Shown here: positions 7,191-64,000 of the stretch, piece by piece
Layout of the letters: each line of letters begins with the position of its first letter
How positions within the stretch are numbered: position 1 is the stretch's first letter
Origin: Microbacterium maritypicum
Lineage (GTDB): Bacteria; Actinomycetota; Actinomycetes; Actinomycetales; Microbacteriaceae
Length of the DNA: 64,000 bases
Direction: 5' to 3'
Assembly: GCF_041529975.1 (NCBI RefSeq)
Contig: NZ_CP168030.1
Coordinates: forward strand, 1,550,001-1,614,000
Program-made: the position numbers and the translations under genes
The notes under the pieces: generated by a model
What the model saw: only the letters and a program-made list of their open reading frames with translations
The model's database searches: none
Told to the model about the DNA's origin: nothing

Positions 7191-7987
7191 TGTCGGTCGC
7201 ACAGGGAGCAGGCGTCGAAGTCAGGAACGTCTCGAAGTCCTTCGGCGTCGACGGCGCGAAGGTCACCGTGCTCGACGACGTGAGTCTCACGATCGGCATG
7301 GGCGAGTTCGTGTCGGTGATCGGTCCGAGCGGCTGTGGCAAGTCCACGCTGCTCAAGGTGGTCGCCGGTCTCCTCGACGCCGACTCGGGCACCGTCACGA
7401 TCGACGGCGAGAGCGTCACCGCGGCCTCGCGCGACAAGAAGATCGGCCTCGTGCCGCAGTCGCCCGCGCTGTTGCCGTGGAAGACCGTGCGCGAGAACGT
7501 CGAACTGCCGGTGCGCATCAACGCCAAGGCGAACTCCGGGCGAGCGCTGCGCGACCCCGCGGAGCTGCTGGCGACCTTCGGCCTCGGTCAGGCGATGACG
7601 AAGTACCCCGGTCAGCTGTCCGGCGGCATGCAGCAGCGTGCCGCGATCGCCAGGGCGTTCGTGTTCGACCCGGCCATCATGCTGATGGACGAGCCGTTCT
7701 CGGCGCTCGACGAGATGAACCGTGACCTGCAGCGCATCGCCCTGCTGGAGTTCTGGCAGTCCAACCGCAAGGCCGTCATGTTCGTCACGCACTCCGTGCC
7801 GGAGGCGATCATGCTCTCCGACCGCATCGTGGTGATGGCCGCCCACCCGGGGCGCATCGCCCAGGTGATCGACGTGAACCTGCCGCGGCCGCGCGACGAG
7901 CAGTCGTATGCCACGGAGGAGTTCCGCGAGATGGAAGCAGTCGTGCGCGATGCGCTGCGTGCGCAGACGGAGAAGGCCCATGTCTGA
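7190..7987 (+). CDS. ABC transporter ATP-binding protein (riboflavin-type uptake)
   Basis: A 265-residue ATPase of the nitrate/sulfonate/taurine (SsuB/TauB, RibZ-like) importer type. Walker A GPSGCGKST is near residue 47, signature LSGGMQQRAAIARAF near 145, Walker B IMLMDEPFSALDE near 165, and switch His in VTHSVPEAI near 197. The Q-loop reads VPQSPALLPWKTVRENV. The start ATG overlaps the previous stop by one base; longer in-frame extensions are out-of-family arginine-rich sequence. It should energise import of the ligand held by the lipoprotein encoded just upstream, together with the permease encoded just downstream. Confidence 0.92.
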   Translation: MSVAQGAGVEVRNVSKSFGVDGAKVTVLDDVSLTIGMGEFVSVIGPSGCGKSTLLKVVAGLLDADSGTVTIDGESVTAASRDKKIGLVPQSPALLPWKTVRENVELPVRINAKANSGRALRDPAELLATFGLGQAMTKYPGQLSGGMQQRAAIARAFVFDPAIMLMDEPFSALDEMNRDLQRIALLEFWQSNRKAVMFVTHSVPEAIMLSDRIVVMAAHPGRIAQVIDVNLPRPRDEQSYATEEFREMEAVVRDALRAQTEKAHV

Positions 7988-8828
7988 GCTGACGATGAGA
8001 GACACGACCGCGACCCTCGCGACCGCCCGCCTGAAGGCCCAGCCGCGCCGTGGCGTCCCGACCTGGCTGCGCTGGGGGTCGTGGGGACCCACCCTGATCA
8101 CGTTCGTGATCGCCGCGCTGCTCTGGCAGGTCGTGGCCTGGACCAACCCGTACGTGCTCCCGACGCTGGAGGCGATCGGCGGCAGCCTCGTCGACGACGC
8201 CGGCATGTACTGGTCGAACTTCCTCGTCACGCTGCTCGAAGTGGTGGTCGGAGCCTCCGCCGGCATCCTCGCCGGTTTCCTGCTGGCCGTGGTCATGGCC
8301 GAGTTCCAGATCATCGAGCGGGCCGTGATGCCGCTCGTGATCATCGTGATGGTGACCCCGATCGTGGCGATCGCCCCGGCGCTGGTCGTGGCCTTCGGGT
8401 TCGGCATGGTGCCGAAGTTCATCGTGACGGGGCTCGTGGTCTTCTTCCCGATGCTCGTGAACTCGCTGGCGGGTCTGCGCGACGTCGACCAGAAGGCGCT
8501 CGACGTCTTCAAGACGCTGCATGCCTCGCGGTGGGAGATCTTCCGGGAACTGCGCTTCCCCGGCAGCATGCCCTATGTGTTCGCGGGTCTCCGCATCGCC
8601 CTGCCGCTCGCCGTCGTCGGCGCCGCGGTCGCCGAGTTCGTGGCAGCGGGACAGCAGGCCGGTCTCGGCTCGCTCGTCACCACCTCCGCCGCCCAGGCGA
8701 ACCTGCCGGTCACCTGGGCCAGCATCGCCCTGCTGTGCCTGCTCGGTGTGCTGCTGATCATCGTCCTCGCCCTGGTGCGCAAGCGCGTGCTCTGGTGGAG
8801 CGACGGCGAGGTCACGGCCAAGGGCTGA
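7980..8828 (+). CDS. ABC transporter permease (riboflavin-type uptake)
   Basis: A 282-residue membrane protein with about six hydrophobic segments and the binding-protein-dependent permease motif (FKTLHASRWEIFRELRFPGSMPYVFAGLRIALPLAVVGAAVAEF, around residues 175-220), the EAA loop that docks on the ATPase. It belongs to the SsuC/TauC/RibX type. It overlaps the ATPase gene by 8 nt (7980-7987). The first 25 codons of a longer reading frame lie inside the ATPase gene and were rejected. A strong hairpin follows before the riboflavin lyase gene, which could raise or lower the expression of one half of the operon relative to the other. Confidence 0.9.
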   Translation: MSELTMRDTTATLATARLKAQPRRGVPTWLRWGSWGPTLITFVIAALLWQVVAWTNPYVLPTLEAIGGSLVDDAGMYWSNFLVTLLEVVVGASAGILAGFLLAVVMAEFQIIERAVMPLVIIVMVTPIVAIAPALVVAFGFGMVPKFIVTGLVVFFPMLVNSLAGLRDVDQKALDVFKTLHASRWEIFRELRFPGSMPYVFAGLRIALPLAVVGAAVAEFVAAGQQAGLGSLVTTSAAQANLPVTWASIALLCLLGVLLIIVLALVRKRVLWWSDGEVTAKG

Positions 8829-8842
8829 CACGGCATCCGGAT

Positions 8843-8871
8843 CCCGGGGCGGGCGCTCCACCCGCCCCGGG
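8843..8871 (+). terminator. Intra-operon GC hairpin between permease and rcaE
   Basis: Perfect 11-bp stem CCCGGGGCGGG (8843-8853) with CCCGCCCCGGG (8861-8871), 7-nt loop, no U-tract after it. It lies 14 bp after the permease stop and 66 bp before rcaE. It may be an attenuator, a processing or stability element, or a partial terminator. Confidence 0.55.
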
Positions 8872-8937
8872 GTTCCTCCGGCGTGCCCGGAACCACTCGA
8901 GAACGACCAGAACCACCCACAAGGAAGGCACCCGCAC

Positions 8938-10317
8938 ATGACCGATCAGAACACCGTCAAGCCGCTGCGTCTCGGCCTCTTCGAGAACGCGCAGGCGAAC
9001 GACTCCGGCACCGCCACCTGGCGTCACCCCGACAACGGGCGCTACCTGTTCGACAAGCTGGAGTACTGGCGCGACACCGCACGCATGGTCGAAGACGCCG
9101 GGTTCGACTTCCTGTTCCTCGCGGATGCCTGGGGCTGGGCCGACGTCGCGGGCGAACGCCCCGACATCTGCTCCGTCGAAGGGCTCGATCTGCCCCGCCT
9201 CGACCCGGCGATCATCCTCGCCGCCCTGATCCCCGAGACCACGCGGCTGGGTCTCGTCGCCACCGGCTCGACCCTCCTCGAGCCGCCCTACTCGTTCGCG
9301 CGCCGGATGGCGACACTCGACATCCTCTCCGGCGGACGCATCGGATGGAACGTGGTGACCACGGGGACGGCCGACACCGCGGTGCAGGGCTTCGGGGTGC
9401 CGATGGTCGGTCATGACGAGCGCTACCTGATGGCCGACGACTTCATGCAGGTCGTGTACAAGCTGTGGGAGCAGGCGTGGGAGGACGGGGCGCTGGAGCG
9501 CGACAAGTCCGGCCGTTTCGCTGACCCCTCCAAGGTGCACCGCATCGCGCATGACGGCCCCTACTTCCGTTCGCACGGCTACGGCAACACCTCGCGCTCG
9601 CCGCAGGGCACCCCGGTGCTGTTCCAGGCCGGGGCGTCGCCCGCCGGCCGGGAGTTCGGAGGCAAGCACGGCGAGGCGATCTTCGTCGGCAGCGGCTCGG
9701 TCGAGCAGCTCCGCGCGCACTCCTCGGCGATCCGGGAGGAGGCCGTGAAGAACGGCCGCGGAGCCGACGAGGTCAAGATCATGTCGGCGTTCGCCGCGAT
9801 CGTCGGCAGCACGGAGGAAGAGGCGCAGCGCAAGTACGCCGAGGTCGCCGACGCGCAGAACCCCGACGTCACCGTCGCCTCCTACGCCTGGTTCACCGGC
9901 CTCGACCTGTCGGCGTACGCGCCGAACACGCCGATGTCCGAGCTCAGCACCGAGCTGTCGCAGACCCAGGTCGCCCGCTTCGCCGACAAGACCGTCGGCG
10001 ACGTGCTCGGAGACTGGCACGCGCACGGTGTCGGCGCCCGCCCGATCGTGGGCACCCCCGAGCAGGTGGCTGACCGCATGATCGAGCTCGCCGACGGCGC
10101 CGACCTCGACGGATTCCTCTTCGCCCCCGTGATCCCGCCGGCATCGACCGTCGACTTCATCGAGCACGTGCTGCCGATCCTCAAGGAGCGCGGCGCGATC
10201 GTCGAGCCGTCGTCGGAGCCGCAGTCGCTGCGGGAGCGCCTGATCGGCACATCGACTCCGGCACTCGCCGATTCGCACACCGGATCGCAGTACCGGCGGA
10301 CGATGTCGCGTGTCTGA
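8938..10317 (+). CDS. rcaE: Riboflavin lyase (LLM-class flavin monooxygenase)
   Basis: A 459-residue luciferase-like monooxygenase of the NtaA/SnaA/DszA-type group. Family signatures are RLGLFENAQANDSGTATWRHP, DFLFLADAWGW, LVATGSTLLEPPYSFARRMATLDILSGGRIGWNVVTT and GTPVLFQAGASPAGREFGGKHGEAIFVG. RcaE of Microbacterium maritypicum uses reduced FMN to split riboflavin into lumichrome and ribose, and its published cluster also contains a riboflavin kinase, flavin reductase and ribokinase. All four types occur within 4 kb here, which is the main reason for the specific call. AAGGAAGG precedes the ATG. The 3' end overlaps the ribokinase gene by 8 nt. Reduced flavin would come from the RcaB-like protein. 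Confidence 0.85.
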   Translation: MTDQNTVKPLRLGLFENAQANDSGTATWRHPDNGRYLFDKLEYWRDTARMVEDAGFDFLFLADAWGWADVAGERPDICSVEGLDLPRLDPAIILAALIPETTRLGLVATGSTLLEPPYSFARRMATLDILSGGRIGWNVVTTGTADTAVQGFGVPMVGHDERYLMADDFMQVVYKLWEQAWEDGALERDKSGRFADPSKVHRIAHDGPYFRSHGYGNTSRSPQGTPVLFQAGASPAGREFGGKHGEAIFVGSGSVEQLRAHSSAIREEAVKNGRGADEVKIMSAFAAIVGSTEEEAQRKYAEVADAQNPDVTVASYAWFTGLDLSAYAPNTPMSELSTELSQTQVARFADKTVGDVLGDWHAHGVGARPIVGTPEQVADRMIELADGADLDGFLFAPVIPPASTVDFIEHVLPILKERGAIVEPSSEPQSLRERLIGTSTPALADSHTGSQYRRTMSRV

Positions 10318-57068: not shown

Positions 57069-57118
57069 AGAAACGCAAGAAGGGCCCCCGCTGGCGCGGA
57101 GACCCTTCTTGCGTTTCT
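57069..57118. terminator. Bidirectional terminator between GNAT and tRNA-Ser
   Basis: Perfect 16-bp inverted repeat (57069-57084 with 57103-57118) with an 18-nt loop, sited between two convergent genes. On the minus strand it follows the tRNA by 2 bp. Confidence 0.8.
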
Positions 57119-57120
57119 GG

Positions 57121-57205
57121 CGGTGACGGCGGGATTCGAACCCGCGGTTGCTTGCACAACACACGCTTTCCAAGCGTGCTCCTTCGGCCGCTCGGACACG
57201 TCACC
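57121..57205 (-). tRNA. tRNA-Ser(GGA)
   Basis: An 85-nt class II tRNA on the minus strand. The acceptor stem GGTGACG (57205-57199) pairs with CGTCACC (57128-57122), discriminator G at 57121. The anticodon loop is CTTGGAAA with GGA, there is a long variable arm, and the T-arm reads CGGGTTCGAATCCCG. CCA is not encoded. Confidence 0.97.
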
Positions 57206-57385: not shown

Positions 57386-58450
57386 ATGCAGGACAGCGCG
57401 ACCACGGCATCACGGCCGAGCCACCGCACGGCCACTGCTTTCGAGCAGTACGTCAGCGGAAGGCGGGGAATCGTCGAGGGCGCCGTGTTCTTCCTCGAAT
57501 CCGGAGACCACATCGAGGAGGTGCTGCACGCGGCGGAGCCCTGCGACATCGTGATCGCCCCCATACGACATTCCGATCCGCGGACCATCGCGTACGACGG
57601 TTCCTTCCTCGAACCCGGCGATGAGATCACCCTCGGCGGGCGCCACACCTTCGAACTGCAGGACTACGTCGCTGTTCCCTTCACCACCTTCGCCGGTCCG
57701 ACCGTCGTCCGGCAGTTCTCGGCAGTGGGGATCGCCGCCTTCCTGAGCGATGCCGACACGGCGCGGAACTCCGGCGTCTTCGTGGGTCAGCTACTGAACA
57801 CGGAAGTGCTGTTGGATTCCTGGGCCTCCTCTCTCGCGGCGGACCTCATCGGCGACTCACTCGGTCGGGTCCACGTCACGCGTCATGGGGAGTATCGAGA
57901 CGGGCCTGACGGGCTTCTGCTCGGGAGCGTGGGCGATGAACGGGCCGATATCGAGGCGACGGCCGCGGCGGGAGCAGGGCGAGGGCGCTCGTTTGCCGGG
58001 GTCGTCGACCCTCGCGTCCTCGAGGCGGACCTCGACGACCGCCCGTGGTTCGGGCGGTATCTGGCGGCTCTCGATCTGATGCGAGGGTGGGAGGGCGCAC
58101 CGCCTCGTGCTGCCATCTCCGGATTCGGCCGCCACCTTGTCGCGGTGCTCGACGAGGGTGGGGCATATCCCTCGATACTGGCTGCCGATGCACCCTTCCT
58201 CGTTACAGGGGACGGCGAGGAGTACATCCTGGTTGATCGAGTGAGCCACAGACGTCTCCGACTCGGAGTCGATTCCGCGAGGGCTGCGGAATGCCTGATC
58301 GCGACCTCGGAGGAGTTTGAGGCGACGGCCCTGCTCGCCACCGAACTCGGCACGCGGGTGAGCAGGGTCGCTCCGCTGGTGCGTGCGCTGCAGGACAGGT
58401 TTGCGGCGACGGGATTCGATGTCACCGGCTACCGGCGGCACGGGTCATGA
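57386..58450 (+). CDS. Daptide-cluster RiPP-recognition-type protein, copy 1 (MpaB-like)
   Basis: A 354-residue soluble protein without a known enzymatic motif. It is a clear paralogue of the next gene: shared marks are EPGDE (76-80), ELQDY (90-94), GPT (104-106), then (D)RPWFGRYLAALDLM and SGFG. In daptide clusters of Microbacterium a protein of this size is annotated as the RiPP recognition protein (B protein); that name is from memory and the match is by context and length. ATG at 57386 has GGGGGAGAG upstream; an earlier in-frame ATG at 57350 has none. It is first in the operon, with a 4-nt overlap to copy 2. I infer it binds the precursor leader and delivers it to the modifying enzymes. 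Confidence 0.7.
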   Translation: MQDSATTASRPSHRTATAFEQYVSGRRGIVEGAVFFLESGDHIEEVLHAAEPCDIVIAPIRHSDPRTIAYDGSFLEPGDEITLGGRHTFELQDYVAVPFTTFAGPTVVRQFSAVGIAAFLSDADTARNSGVFVGQLLNTEVLLDSWASSLAADLIGDSLGRVHVTRHGEYRDGPDGLLLGSVGDERADIEATAAAGAGRGRSFAGVVDPRVLEADLDDRPWFGRYLAALDLMRGWEGAPPRAAISGFGRHLVAVLDEGGAYPSILAADAPFLVTGDGEEYILVDRVSHRRLRLGVDSARAAECLIATSEEFEATALLATELGTRVSRVAPLVRALQDRFAATGFDVTGYRRHGS

Positions 58451-59499
58451 CGCGCGACGAAGAAGGGGCGGTCGATATCGAACGCGTCGGAGCCCGGGCA
58501 CTGCGTGAATGGATCACCGGAGTGCGCGATCAGCACACGCGGGTGTACCTCGTGGATGTCGGAGCCTCGGCACGGAACCTGGACGCGGTGACCAGTAAGG
58601 ACGACGTCATGCTGTTGCCGACAGGAAGCGATCCGTACAGAGGACCTGCCACGGCCGTCCATTACAACGGCGCACTGCGCGACCCCGGAGACGAGCTGTT
58701 TTTCGGAGAACGTGGAGTCGAACTCCAGGACTATTCGGCTGCGGAGTTCGTTCAGATCGTCGGCCCCACTGCGGTGTGCTTCTTCGATGAGTCGAGCTGG
58801 CGCGCCTTCCTCGATGACGCTGAACTCGCCCGACGGACGGGCATCTTTCCCTCGACTCTGCTCGACCCCCGGATTCTTCTCGCGGACCGCAGAGCGCTTG
58901 CCGACCCCCGCGGACTGGAGACTCCGAGCGCCATCCGCTTGAGTTCCGATGGCAGAGTGAGCATCGGTGTGCGCGGCGCCGACATCGGCCATGTCGATGA
59001 CCTGCCGGCGGTACTCACGATCCCGCTTCCGGGTGTCGCCGCGTGGGACGACATCGCGCCCAGAGATGTGCTCCTCGCCGACCTCGCGAATCGGGAGTGG
59101 ATCGGTCGATACCTCCAGGCGACGGATCTCATGAAGATGCTCCGGCTTGCCAACGGTGCGGCGAGAATCACGGGGTTCGGCTGGTCCCTGGTCGACGACA
59201 ACCTCTCCGATGCCGAACCGCCCATCCGCGATCCATTCCTGCTCGAGATGGCAGACGGTTTCATACTGGCCGACCCCACCACACTGCGTCGCCAGCTGCT
59301 GTCGCCCATGACTGCCGCGGTGGTCGCCGTCGCCCAGACTTCCAGCACGCTCGCCCTCGCGGCTGAGCGGGTGGCGCGAAAACTCGGCATCTCTGTCTCG
59401 GAAGCGGAGACCCTGTGCCGTGCAGCCCTCGCAGCTCTCGGCGTCCACTCCGGCAGACGCGCTGCCGCCGCACCACGCCCCACGGGAGTCGACGCATGA
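58447..59499 (+). CDS. Daptide-cluster RiPP-recognition-type protein, copy 2 (MpaB-like)
   Basis: A 350-residue paralogue of the preceding protein: DPGDE (79-83), ELQDY (92-96), GPT (106-108), then REWIGRYLQATDLM and TGFG. The N-terminal 60 residues and C-terminal 60 residues diverge, the latter being Ala-rich. ATGA overlaps with both neighbours imply strict co-translation. Two copies may form a heterodimer or serve different precursors; three different precursor genes lie downstream. No catalytic residues are recognisable. Confidence 0.7.
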   Translation: MTRDEEGAVDIERVGARALREWITGVRDQHTRVYLVDVGASARNLDAVTSKDDVMLLPTGSDPYRGPATAVHYNGALRDPGDELFFGERGVELQDYSAAEFVQIVGPTAVCFFDESSWRAFLDDAELARRTGIFPSTLLDPRILLADRRALADPRGLETPSAIRLSSDGRVSIGVRGADIGHVDDLPAVLTIPLPGVAAWDDIAPRDVLLADLANREWIGRYLQATDLMKMLRLANGAARITGFGWSLVDDNLSDAEPPIRDPFLLEMADGFILADPTTLRRQLLSPMTAAVVAVAQTSSTLALAAERVARKLGISVSEAETLCRAALAALGVHSGRRAAAAPRPTGVDA

Positions 59500-60755
59500 C
59501 CGACCCGCACGCGCTGTGGACCTCGATGCTCCCGGCCGACGTCACCTTCGCGCCTGACCGAGTGGCCGTCGGCGCGTCAGGAAACCGCATCGAGTTCGCT
59601 GACGGATCCACGCGCCTCTGTGCGACGAGCGGGCTGTGGAATGTCCCCCTCGGCTTCGGCAACGCTGCGGTGACCGAAGCGGTGAGCAGAGCGACACATG
59701 ATGCCTCGTACCTGTCCCTGTTCAGAGCGCCGCACAGGTATGCGGAAATCGCGGCGGAGGCTCTCATCGAACTGGCGAAACCGAGCAGGTACCGCCGTGT
59801 CATCTTCTCGACGTCGGGCGGGGCGGCGAACGATGCCGCCGTGAAGCTGGCGCGACAGTACTGGGTGCAGAAGGGCTCCGGGTCCCGATCGCTCGTCGTC
59901 GGACTGAAGGGTAGCTATCACGGCACCATGTACGGCAGCCATGCACTGAGTGGCGATGAACTCCACCAAGCGGTCTATTCGGTCGATCGCAGATCGGTGA
60001 GGCACGTGTCGCACAGCGATGACGGGGAGGAGCTGGCGACACTGCTCTCACGCGAAGGGTCGCGGGTGGCCTCGGTCGTCGTCGAGCCCGTCCTTGGCAG
60101 CGGCGCGTACGCGCTCTCAGATGCCTTCGTGCACCGTCTTCTCGCTTTGAGGGAGGAGTACGGGTTTCTGATCGTCGCTGATGAGGTCGCGACGGGATTC
60201 GGCCGCACCGGGACGATGTTCGCTACCGACCGCTGGGCGGCCGCGCCCGACGTCCTCATCCTCTCGAAAGCACTGACGAACGGCGCGATGGGCGCCGCAG
60301 CACTCCTTGTCGGGCACCGTGTGGCCTCCGAGTTCGTCCGAGGAGGCTGGACGTTCATCCACGGCGAGACGCAGGCGGGGACACCAGGGTGTTCGGCGGC
60401 GATCGTCGCCGTCATCGAGGAGCTGCACCGCATCGACGTGGAATCGGTAACCATGTCACTGGCAGACGAGTTGTCACAGCTCACGACACGATTGGTGTCG
60501 GACGGCATCGTCACCGGGGTCACGGGACGCGGCTGCTTTCTCGGGTTGGAACTCTGCGACCAGGATGGGAATCCGCTCTCCGGTCCCGAGGTTCTTCGCG
60601 TCGTCTCCGCGGTCGCGGCGAACGGCGTCCTTGTGCAGCCGGGGCCGAGCTCCATCGAACTGATTCCGGCGTACGGGTTCACCCCCGGGGAACTCGTGGA
60701 AATGGATACCGCGGTGCGTGCGGGTGTGGCGCAGTCACGGGAGATCTCCGCATGA
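59496..60755 (+). CDS. Daptide-type class III aminotransferase (MpaD-like)
   Basis: A 419-residue PLP aminotransferase of the class III (GabT/BioA) fold. Motifs: FSTSGGAANDAAVKLAR, GLKGSYHGTMYGSHAL, VVVEPVLGSGAYALSD, LIVADEVATGFGRTGTMFA (PLP-ring Asp229) and LILSKALTNGAMGAAALL with Schiff-base Lys258. In daptide biosynthesis the D protein transaminates the C-terminal ketone left after oxidative decarboxylation of Thr, giving a 1,2-propanediamine terminus. The context of precursors ending in Thr supports this specialised role over ordinary amino acid metabolism. ATGA overlaps on both sides. Confidence 0.83.
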   Translation: MTDPHALWTSMLPADVTFAPDRVAVGASGNRIEFADGSTRLCATSGLWNVPLGFGNAAVTEAVSRATHDASYLSLFRAPHRYAEIAAEALIELAKPSRYRRVIFSTSGGAANDAAVKLARQYWVQKGSGSRSLVVGLKGSYHGTMYGSHALSGDELHQAVYSVDRRSVRHVSHSDDGEELATLLSREGSRVASVVVEPVLGSGAYALSDAFVHRLLALREEYGFLIVADEVATGFGRTGTMFATDRWAAAPDVLILSKALTNGAMGAAALLVGHRVASEFVRGGWTFIHGETQAGTPGCSAAIVAVIEELHRIDVESVTMSLADELSQLTTRLVSDGIVTGVTGRGCFLGLELCDQDGNPLSGPEVLRVVSAVAANGVLVQPGPSSIELIPAYGFTPGELVEMDTAVRAGVAQSREISA

Positions 60756-61879
60756 ATAGAGGCTTTGCGGGGCGCGTTCCCACGCTATGGCACGGAAGCG
60801 GGATCGCACGGGAGGCGGTGGGGCGCCTCACGGCGGGACGGGAGACCTTGGTGATCGCTGATGCGGCCGTCACGGTTCCCTTCCTGGACGACGGCAACGC
60901 CAGGATGATCGACATCGACGCACTCGCCTCAGACGTCACGACGGTGGTAGCTATCGCGCGCGAGATCGTTCGCCGCCCTCCACGCGTCATCGTGGCAGTC
61001 GGTGGAGGGAGCGTACTCGACGCCAGCAAGCTCGCCGCGCTCGCGCTCGCCAATGGGCGGGTGTTCGACTACGCCGTCGAACATGCGTCGAGGGCGCCAC
61101 TGACATTCCTGCCCGATGCTCCGCCGCCCGTCGACATCGTCACCATGCCGACTACGCTCGGCACCTCGTCGGAGACGAACAGTGTCGCCATCCTCAGAAA
61201 CGAACACGGCAATCGCCTCATCGTCGGGCGCTCCCTGAGGCCGCGTCACGCCATCATCGATCCCTGCAATTCGGTCACCCTCCGGCCGACTTCGGTCAGG
61301 GAGGGAGCGCTGGAGGCGTTCCTTCGCCTGGCAGGGGCGTCGACGAGTCCGGGAAGGAGTGCGAGGGCGAAAAGCGACGCCGTCACGCTCGGTAGGGCAC
61401 TCCTCGAGACCGCCGCTCGTCACTCGGGTTCCCCCACGGGAAGGTTGCGCGTCGCGCGTCTGAGCGCAGCGACCCAGCGCACCGCAGCGCTCAGGGGCCC
61501 CGACCCCTACGGCGCCCGTCATTGGTACCTGGCGAACGAAGTCGCGTTCGTGCTCGGGGTTCGCAAGATGGTCGCAACGGCTGGCATCATCGCTGCCGTG
61601 TGGCGGCGAATCTGCTCGGGTGAGTCACGCTGGGGGGATCGTGAGAGCCTCCAGGATTTCTGGGCCGGGGTCACCGCCGGGACCGGGTTGCCTCTCGATC
61701 CGCCCGCCGGCGCGGCTGCGCTCGTCGACGGGTGGGGAATCCCGTGCCCGGCGAAGCCGACGGCTGACGAGATCGGTCGCATCTCCACGGCCACCGAGAA
61801 AGCGTGGGGGCATCGCCAACCGATGCTTCGCGGACTTCTCGCGGCGGACTTCCGTGATGTGCTCCGCGATTCGTGCTAG
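60752..61879 (+). CDS. Daptide-type dehydrogenase/oxidative decarboxylase (MpaC-like)
   Basis: A 375-residue protein of the iron-containing alcohol dehydrogenase/glycerol dehydrogenase fold. The nucleotide part is clear: VIVAVGGGSVLDASKLAAL (84-93 GGGSVLDASK) and TMPTTLGTSSETNSVA (134-141). The metal site is not: the GMDALxHxxE block reads GALEAFLRL (185-193) without His, and the usual VPHG block appears as GVRKM (269-273), leaving only His257 nearby. In daptide biosynthesis the C protein oxidises the hydroxyl of the C-terminal Thr, after which CO2 is lost. It ends 64 bp before the first precursor gene. Confidence 0.8.
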   Translation: MNRGFAGRVPTLWHGSGIAREAVGRLTAGRETLVIADAAVTVPFLDDGNARMIDIDALASDVTTVVAIAREIVRRPPRVIVAVGGGSVLDASKLAALALANGRVFDYAVEHASRAPLTFLPDAPPPVDIVTMPTTLGTSSETNSVAILRNEHGNRLIVGRSLRPRHAIIDPCNSVTLRPTSVREGALEAFLRLAGASTSPGRSARAKSDAVTLGRALLETAARHSGSPTGRLRVARLSAATQRTAALRGPDPYGARHWYLANEVAFVLGVRKMVATAGIIAAVWRRICSGESRWGDRESLQDFWAGVTAGTGLPLDPPAGAAALVDGWGIPCPAKPTADEIGRISTATEKAWGHRQPMLRGLLAADFRDVLRDSC

Positions 61880-61943: not shown

Positions 61944-62078
61944 ATGAACAACGGTGTTGAAAGGCAGATCTGCTTTCAAGAACTCGACGAAATGGAAGCC
62001 CCCAGCTGGGAGAGCTTCTATGAAGGCGCGATCGGCGCACTGATACTCATCGGAATCGGCGCAGCCGCAGCGACGTGA
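61944..62078 (+). CDS. Daptide precursor peptide 1, 44 residues, C-terminal Thr
   Basis: A 44-codon gene behind a perfect AAGGAGGTG ribosome site (61929-61937). The leader contains the motif FQELDEMEA (residues 11-19). The core is hydrophobic and helix-prone (GALILIGIGAAAAT) and ends in Ala-Thr. All three small genes here share F-x-E-L-(D/E)-x-(M/I)-(E/D)-A and a C-terminal Thr, exactly what the neighbouring enzymes would modify into a dimethylated propanediamine end. The mature peptide would be a short membrane-active helix. The cleavage site cannot be placed with certainty; the acidic-aromatic stretch SWESFYEG (21-28) is near the leader-core border. Confidence 0.82.
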   Translation: MNNGVERQICFQELDEMEAPSWESFYEGAIGALILIGIGAAAAT

Positions 62079-62120
62079 TCTCGTCGACCCGATGAGGGTG
62101 ACGAAACGAAAGGAGGAAAT

Positions 62121-62246
62121 ATGCAGGCCACGATGCCGAAGCTCGAGTTCACCGAACTCGAGGCCATGGAAGCGCTGAACGACGGCGAGGACTTCCTGCG
62201 GGGATTCGCCGCGGGCGTCATCATCGGGATTCTCGCGCTGACGTAG
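62121..62246 (+). CDS. Daptide precursor peptide 2, 41 residues, C-terminal Thr
   Basis: A 41-codon gene with AAGGAGG (62109-62115) 5 nt before ATG. The leader motif is FTELEAMEA (residues 10-18). The core runs GFAAGVIIGILALT and ends Leu-Thr, followed by tandem stop codons TAG TAG. Leader similarity and the C-terminal Thr mark it as a second substrate of the same modification enzymes. The gene is too short for most automated gene callers. Confidence 0.82.
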   Translation: MQATMPKLEFTELEAMEALNDGEDFLRGFAAGVIIGILALT

Positions 62247-62281
62247 TAGTCGTATCCGACTACCGATTGAGGAGGTACCAA

Positions 62282-62401
62282 ATGCTGACGAGATCGCTGG
62301 AATTCCAGGAACTCGAACAGATCGACGCACCACTCGAATGGTGGGAGCACGCGGGCTACATCATCGCCATCATCGGCGGTGCGGCAGCGATCGCAACCTG
62401 A
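62282..62401 (+). CDS. Daptide precursor peptide 3, 39 residues, C-terminal Thr
   Basis: A 39-codon gene with TGAGGAGG (62268-62275) upstream of ATG 62282. The leader motif is FQELEQIDA (residues 8-16), followed by the aromatic-acidic PLEWWEHAG and a hydrophobic core YIIAIIGGAAAIAT ending Ala-Thr. It has the shortest leader of the three. A hairpin follows its stop codon by 7 bp. As with the other two, the expected modification is on the terminal Thr. Confidence 0.82.
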   Translation: MLTRSLEFQELEQIDAPLEWWEHAGYIIAIIGGAAAIAT

Positions 62402-62463: not shown

Positions 62464-63291
62464 ATGCCAGGACTGATCACCGAAGCCATGCAGGCGCGAC
62501 TCGACCTGGTCGGGGCGCGTCCCCGGGAACAAGACCTGTACGAAGGGGAGGGCACCGACTTCTATGAGCGACTCGTCGGCCCCGACCGTGCCGAGATTCG
62601 AGAGATGCTGGCACTCGCGAGAGATGCCGCGGGGCCTGTACTCGATCTCGCCGCGGGAAGCGGGAGAGTGACGATCCCGCTGGTGAGATCCGGCAAGCGA
62701 GTCACCGCCATCGACCTTTCGGACGACATGCTCGCCCACCTGCGACGCGCCTTGCCGGAGCGGTCGGCCGTCGAGTGCATCGTCGCGGACATGCGTCACT
62801 TCTCGCTGGAGGCCCGGTACGAGCTCGTCATCATCGGCGCGACGTCCATCACCTTGCTCGATCACGAAGGAAGGTCGCTTCTCTACGCGAACGTGCGGCG
62901 TCACCTCGCCCCCGGCGGCGTCTTCGCCTTCACCGTCGCCACAGGTGCGTCTGCGCAGAGTCTCGCCGTGCCGACAGAGCGTGAGATCAGAGTCCCTGGT
63001 AGAGGCCAAGACGACATCTATCTCTTCTCCCAGCAGGTGGAAGCGGACGGCGCGGCGCGGGTGGTCAATTGGGTCCGTGCCTCAGACGTGACCCCTGGCG
63101 GCGAAGTCACCATCCTCACCAGCCGATTGCAGCTGCTCAGCCACGAGGTTCTCGCGAGAGAACTCGTCGAAGCCGGCTTCCACGAACCTGCCGTATCTCC
63201 TGTTCGAACGCACCTCGGAGCGGAGATCCTCCTTCTCAAGACGTCGTGGGCGGGGGCCTGGGGAATGGCGGATGGCGATGTTTCCGACTAG
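62464..63291 (+). CDS. Daptide-type N-methyltransferase (MpaM-like)
   Basis: A 275-residue class I SAM-dependent methyltransferase. Motif I is PVLDLAAGSGRVTIPL (58-73), the Asp at the end of strand 2 is in VTAIDLSDDML, and motif II/III appear as IVADMRHF and ELVIIGATSITLL. Between residues 30 and 35 TDFYERL is typical of this family's N-terminal cap. In daptide biosynthesis the M protein dimethylates the new C-terminal amine. GAGAGG precedes ATG 62464. It overlaps the metalloprotease gene by 20 nt. Confidence 0.82.
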   Translation: MPGLITEAMQARLDLVGARPREQDLYEGEGTDFYERLVGPDRAEIREMLALARDAAGPVLDLAAGSGRVTIPLVRSGKRVTAIDLSDDMLAHLRRALPERSAVECIVADMRHFSLEARYELVIIGATSITLLDHEGRSLLYANVRRHLAPGGVFAFTVATGASAQSLAVPTEREIRVPGRGQDDIYLFSQQVEADGAARVVNWVRASDVTPGGEVTILTSRLQLLSHEVLARELVEAGFHEPAVSPVRTHLGAEILLLKTSWAGAWGMADGDVSD

Positions 63292-64000
63292 TTCCCTTCG
63301 GAGGAGAAAGAGCTCCGCACCAGCACCGCTCACTGCAGACACGTGTCCGCTTCTGTCGACCGGAGTCACGTTCGTGGGAGTCGGCGATGAATCGACGGGG
63401 ATAGCAGTGCTGCACGGCGTGCCTTCATCCAGGGTTTCGCGGCCGGTCGTCGACCTGCTGTCGGCGATGGACGGCACGACCTCGCTTCACGATCTGCATC
63501 TGCGCTTCGCCGCATCCGAGTCCTCCGAGAGCTTCCTCCAGCTGGTCCAGCGTTTCCGCGCCACGGGGCTGCTCGAGGGCGACACCAAGCTGCCGCCCGG
63601 TCGGCTGACCTATCGGCCCCCGTTCACGCTGCAGATCGCAACCCTTCGTGCGGCCGCCATCTTCGGTCGACTGCACCGTCTGATCGCGCCCCTCCCACGC
63701 CGGGCGATCCTGGTATCCGTTGCGGCCGTGCTCAGCCTGGGGTTCATGGCGGCCATCCTTCAGGCGAGAGAGCTGCTGAACGTCGTCACCACGCCCATGC
63801 CTTTGGGGGCGATCGTGGTTCTCGTCGCCGTCCTCGCGTGCCTCACCCTGCTCCATGAGAGCGCCCACGGCCTCACACTCACGCGCTACGGCGGCAGGTC
63901 CCGGCGCGCCGGCGTCATGCTCTTCTATCTCGCTCCCGCCTTTTTCGTCGATGTGACGGATGGCTGGCGCCTGCCTCGCCGTCGGCAGCGCGTGGAAGTC
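63272..64000 (+). CDS. Daptide-type intramembrane metalloprotease, truncated by window edge (MpaP-like)
   Basis: The frame from ATG 63272 (or 63278) stays open to the last base: 243 residues are visible and the gene continues past the window. Residues ~25-115 form a small soluble domain rich in short helices, similar in style to PqqD/RRE-type domains (GVPSSRVSRPVVDLLSAMDGTTSLHDLHLRF). Two hydrophobic helices follow (about 143-165 and 175-193), the second ending in zinc-protease motif HESAH (195-199, HExxH), then FFVDVTDGW. This is a site-2/M50-type protease fused to a leader-binding-like domain and probably removes the leader of the precursors. It overlaps the methyltransferase gene by 20 nt. 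Confidence 0.8.
   Translation, partial: MAMFPTSSLRRRKSSAPAPLTADTCPLLSTGVTFVGVGDESTGIAVLHGVPSSRVSRPVVDLLSAMDGTTSLHDLHLRFAASESSESFLQLVQRFRATGLLEGDTKLPPGRLTYRPPFTLQIATLRAAAIFGRLHRLIAPLPRRAILVSVAAVLSLGFMAAILQARELLNVVTTPMPLGAIVVLVAVLACLTLLHESAHGLTLTRYGGRSRRAGVMLFYLAPAFFVDVTDGWRLPRRRQRVEV

Follow-up and report, generated by a model that had tools for sequence, protein, structure and literature searches.

A daptide-type gene cluster with a second DapB-like gene in Microbacterium maritypicum

Overview

The window analysed here, a stretch of 64,000 nucleotides of the Microbacterium maritypicum genome, contains three short genes (A1–A3) which very probably encode daptide precursors of the MpaA1, MpaA2, and MpaA3 types, together with enzymes predicted to convert the C-terminal threonine (Thr) of each peptide into a dimethylated diamine (Dmp), in an operon that opens with a gene for a second DapB-like protein. 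The cluster is a new case within the known daptide class, with core sequences that are new in their exact form, and is otherwise an ordinary relative of the mpa cluster described in 2023, the second DapB being its one unusual part. The cluster adds predicted daptide masses that can be sought at once, as well as a natural variant of the leader cutting site, although the second DapB is of greater importance than either of these.

Gene content and organization of the cluster

The features of the cluster are listed in Table 1, in which the models are the curated NCBIfam profiles, each with its own cut-off.

Table 1. Features of the cluster, with positions in the window, profile matches, and predicted cores
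Feature	Position	Strand	Product	Length (aa)	Model, score and cut-off (bits)	Predicted core
tRNA-Ser(GGA)	57118..57205	-	tRNA, upstream of the cluster			
B1	57386..58450	+	Second DapB-like leader-recognition protein	354	NF041823 daptide_RRE, 200.6 (150), scored on the frame begun at the upstream GTG, 57350	
B2	58447..59499	+	DapB (MpaB ortholog)	350	NF041823, 261.6 (150)	
DapD	59496..60755	+	Aminotransferase	419	NF041821 daptide_amino, 557.9 (450); PF00202	
DapC	60752..61879	+	Dehydrogenase of the iron-ADH fold, predicted oxidative decarboxylase	375	NF041822 daptide_DH, 329.1 (300); PF00465	
A1	61944..62078	+	Precursor (MpaA1 family)	44	NF041805, 92.3 (40)	SWESFYEGAIGALILIGIGAAAAT
A2	62121..62246	+	Precursor (MpaA2 family)	41	NF041806, 92.4 (40)	NDGEDFLRGFAAGVIIGILALT
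A3	62282..62401	+	Precursor (MpaA3 family)	39	NF041807, 86 (40)	LEWWEHAGYIIAIIGGAAAIAT
DapM	62464..63291	+	Methyltransferase	275	NF041820 daptide_MTase, 265 (175)	
DapP	63272..64000, extends beyond the window	+	Intramembrane metalloprotease	559 (whole gene, L035:7272-8951)	NF041824, 380.6 (300), whole gene	

A first-pass annotation of this DNA had described three consecutive frames of 44, 41, and 39 codons, each ending in Thr, each preceded by a ribosome site and bearing a common leader motif, between an ADH-like gene and a methyltransferase gene, and had read them as part of a daptide-like cluster. The coordinates and translations agree with this description: each peptide begins with ATG and has Thr as the last residue before the stop, the purine-rich sites upstream of the three genes include the bases AAGGAGGTG, AAAGGAGG, and GAGGAGGT, and the frames do lie between the DapC and DapM genes. 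In the six reading frames of the window, there are exactly three instances of the motif F-x-E-L-[DE]-x-[MI]-[ED]-A, one in each peptide. All three peptides combine a leader resembling ELxxMEAP with a hydrophobic core and a C-terminal Thr, and the comparison with known daptide precursors proposed in that annotation places each of them well above the cut-off of its model. The earlier view of “three new precursors” holds for the exact core sequences, although each peptide belongs to a named family. The general precursor model NF041808 finds three matches in the whole 3.9 Mb genome (E ≤ 0.001), all of them A1–A3, with no fourth at this threshold, and none in 14 control genomes.

The daptide-specific models are matched by all nine proteins of the cluster (the three peptides and six neighbors), eight of them above the cut-off inside the window, and DapP once the gene is taken whole, given that the 243 residues inside the window score 218.1 bits. 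DapC exceeds the cut-offs of both PF00465 and NF041822, as expected of a daptide dehydrogenase, DapD and DapM exceed those of their own daptide models, the translation of DapP contains the motifs HESAH and NLIPFVRFDG (read by eye), and an accessory protein with a C-terminal RRE domain, as in DapB, is also encoded. When DapC was aligned to YqhD, the four columns which we take to be the metal-ligand positions of the latter hold Glu, Arg, Trp, and Lys, versus Asp, His, His, and His, in a part of the alignment that is weak. These apparent substitutions agree with the loss of the usual metal ligands stated for the DapC of Thermobifida fusca, TfDapC (PMC12670281).

The B1/B2, B2/DapD, and DapD/DapC genes overlap by four bases each, and DapM/DapP by 20 bases, which suggests that the cluster is read as a single transcript, of which B1 is apparently the first gene; a consensus scan for promoters and terminators performed no better than on shuffled sequences. 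Downstream of DapP lie a gene for an ABC ATPase (L035:8965-9681, PF00005 above cut-off), two frames of 242 and 262 aa, which may be the membrane subunits of the transporter and which have no family match above cut-off, and then TrhO. A tRNA-Ser(GGA), like the one upstream of the cluster, was found by ARAGORN in 24 of 26 loci, including that of the window (L035), though not in L022 and L025, in a count that leaves out L008, L026, and L028–L033. In four loci (L006, L015, L034, and L018), the place of B1 between the tRNA-Ser and DapB is occupied by other genes, three of these loci carrying a frame that resembles a phosphotransferase and the remaining one a DeoR-like regulator (read by eye), so this slot seems to be open to the exchange of genes.

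Predicted pathway and products

All the steps of the pathway are predicted by analogy with other daptide clusters. The RRE domain of DapB would bind the leader motif and present the Thr to DapC, as in the mpa and tfDap clusters, DapB being likely a helper that holds the peptide for the first enzyme. DapC would then remove CO2 and two hydrogens from the Thr to give an aminoacetone, which DapD would transaminate and to which DapM would add two methyl groups, yielding Dmp. DapP would cut the leader after the proline at position -1 (Pro(-1)), or after Leu(-1) in the case of A2, and an ABC transporter would export a hydrophobic helical peptide, positively charged at its two ends. Oxidative decarboxylation by DapB and DapC has been shown in other daptide clusters, as have the transamination by DapD and the dimethylation by DapM, including those of tfDap (PMC10036551, PMC12670281), and the removal of the leader has been credited to DapP (PMC10036551).

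The calculated [M+H]+ values of the predicted Dmp products are 2364.30, 2245.27, and 2309.28, the second of which assumes that A2 is cut after Leu(-1). The processing of A2 is less certain, because it lacks the Pro(-1) that precedes the published leader cut, and has a Leu where Pro stands in the A2 of the reference locus L016 (see below). Daptides 1–3 of the mpa cluster cause haemolysis, by analogy with which the predicted peptides of the window may also be active on membranes; the growth of the tested microbes was not significantly inhibited by daptides 1–3 (PMC10036551).

The second DapB

The two DapB genes upstream of DapD did not figure in the first-pass annotation. B1 is 32% identical to B2, and in the predicted model of B1, the C-terminal part (approximately residues 261–347) consists of three strands followed by three helices, and resembles the solved leader-binding domains of the RiPPs, as do residues 255–332 of the B2 model. 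The fold search, which was slight for the first domain of both proteins, reported no clear solved relative of that part. No description of a second DapB was found in the passages searched of PMC10036551 and PMC12670281, although it may be mentioned in their supplements, which lay outside the search.

A DapB match was found in 68 of 366 Microbacterium genomes, and an adjacent B1–B2 pair in 18 of these (table read by eye), leaving 50 with no pair. The locus set was drawn from 58 of the 68 genomes and, with the window counted in, comprises 59 Microbacterium loci. Among the 396 genomes sampled in the order, the nine matching genomes of other genera have no tandem DapB; in two of these (G370 and G416), a single DapB gene is in two pieces. 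B1 covers nearly the whole length of the profile in 14 loci, and ends before the RRE in four (L070, L071, L075, and L079), where it is an open frame of 255–278 residues beside a full-length B2. The B1 set includes some near-copies (the window and L068, L061 and L063, and L071 and L075). Two observations on B2 may be added here. In L011 and L096, which represent one sequenced species, the frame of B1 is open and that of B2 is split in two. In L078 (genome G246, minus strand, approximately 7900–9000), a lone B2-type DapB lies directly before a TrhO-like frame, with no match to DapD, DapC, DapM, or DapP in the surrounding stretch, as if the rest of the daptide cluster had been deleted where other genomes keep it whole.

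In a quick, unrooted tree of 83 DapB rows, 20 B1-type rows are grouped (SH-aLRT 100), separate from 55 B2-type rows (SH-aLRT 99), and the B1-type group includes the sole DapB of L089 and L090; its joins with L100/L103 and with L088 are flagged as possible long-branch joins. It is improbable that B1 arose by a recent duplication of B2, because B1 groups with the DapB of L089 and L090, clusters that are otherwise far from that of the window, and the two groups are separate and have long stems. The transfer of B1 between daptide clusters agrees best with these patterns; being unrooted, the tree gives no direction for it. On a tree of DapD, DapC, DapM, and DapP (54 loci), six changes are required to account for the presence of B1, scored in 53 loci, and two for the absence of the RRE. 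The Nei-Gojobori dN/dS of B1 is 0.23–0.33 over the first 235 residues and 0.20–0.30 over the rest, in pairs with dS above 0.3, similar to B2, with values of 0.23–0.26 in the RRE-less forms. In the pairs that could be measured, then, B1 is under purifying selection. The idea that B1 might serve orphan precursors like that of L089, encoded at some other place in the genome, was rejected, given that a search with the L089 precursor finds only A1–A3, and weakly.

Alternative explanations

Many short hydrophobic peptides are bacteriocins, and A1–A3 might be membrane peptides of this kind, either unmodified or modified in some other way, with the neighboring enzymes serving a different pathway. This is very improbable, however, given that these neighbors score above the cut-offs of daptide-specific models, the peptides carry both the leader motif and the terminal Thr, and the cluster appears to be the ortholog of one with a proven Dmp product.

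For B1, the most likely role is that of a second helper that acts with DapC or with B2. One possible, though tentative, form of this reading is a hybrid system, in which B2 and a B1 derived from a different daptide lineage work together and non-redundantly on one DapC and one set of precursors, B1 having shed its RRE in some lineages, where its first domain alone would be active. Somewhat less plausible is that B1 is the decaying and functionless remnant of another daptide cluster, as might be suggested by its grouping with the sole DapB of L089 and L090, the loss of the RRE in four of the 18 B1 genes, and the 50 genomes without the pair; against this, the dN/dS of B1 is as low as that of B2, even in the RRE-less forms, and the B1 of the window is an uninterrupted, full-length frame, with an RRE-like fold at the end of its model. 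It is improbable that B1 is a dedicated carrier for an A2 that lacks Pro(-1). While Leu(-1) is present in the A2 of all 18 clusters with B1, versus 12 of the 35 without it (counted by eye, excluding L053, in which the contig ends too early), those 12 clusters have the variant without B1, and once relatedness is counted, four independent pairs on starred branches remain, with a median p of 1. The co-evolution of B1 and Leu(-1) was thus rejected, the striking raw counts being empty after this correction. If the hybrid reading of B1 is true, the leader-binding and enzyme-activating roles of DapB would be split between two proteins. MpaB without its RRE (residues 1–266) forms no ketone (PMC10036551), whereas RRE-less forms of B1, which end near the same point, are kept beside a full B2 in four genomes, under purifying selection in the measurable pairs, so the role of the first domain of DapB for DapC is testable with natural proteins.

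Comparison with known daptide clusters

Among the closest known clusters is the mpa cluster of Microbacterium paraoxydans DSM 15019, whose daptides 1–3 have m/z values of 2363, 2232, and 2339, are cut after a conserved Pro, and are 17 Da lighter than the core (PMC10036551). This cluster was compared through L016 (Microbacterium sp. LCT-H2), which stands in for it because the Dmp masses calculated from its cores (2363.31, 2232.27, and 2339.29) equal the published values, and its A1 leader, ELDPMEAP, matches the published residues at positions -8 to -1. The masses of daptides 1–3 are not reproduced by the cores of L012, a contig that bears the title M. paraoxydans EaN35-6.

The search with DapD, which reaches close relatives only, recovered 33 loci from named genomes, every one of which is titled Microbacterium, and most of these loci share the gene order B-D-C-precursors-M-P. 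The nearest is L002 (Microbacterium sp. MYb45), with a DapD 100% identical to that of the window and the same three precursors. Two loci from other genera of the order (L098 and L099) have a single precursor hit, a leader that ends in DAL rather than DAP, and no BLAST match to the DapM of the window.

More distant are the tfDap cluster of T. fusca and the saDap cluster of Streptomyces azureus, which share with the window the logic of DapB, C, D, M, and P plus a transporter, the latter probable in the window, and a DapC that lacks the usual metal ligands (PMC12670281), as that of the window appears to do. The window differs from them in that none of the genes examined from 57386 to TrhO is a YcaO, a dehydratase, or a luciferase-like tailoring gene. 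In the Microbacterium clusters of the L089/L090 type (genomes G286 and G109), the sole DapB is of the B1 kind, there are two precursors with other core sequences, and DapC and DapD are 35% and 52% identical to those of the window.

The mpa cluster has the same three precursor families and the same set of DapB, C, D, M, and P, and we infer from the sequences that the cluster of the window is its ortholog, with core sequences of its own. In comparison with L016, the cores are identical at 20 of 24 residues in A1, 16 of 22 in A2, and 21 of 22 in A3 (thus differing at four, six, and one), and the A2 of the window has Leu(-1). The mpaABCDMP genes are enough for the product, although the whole clone gives a stronger signal; flanking genes may, in the view of the authors, enhance productivity (PMC10036551). 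Where L016 has a single DapB gene, the window has two, and the additional one, B1, opens the operon.
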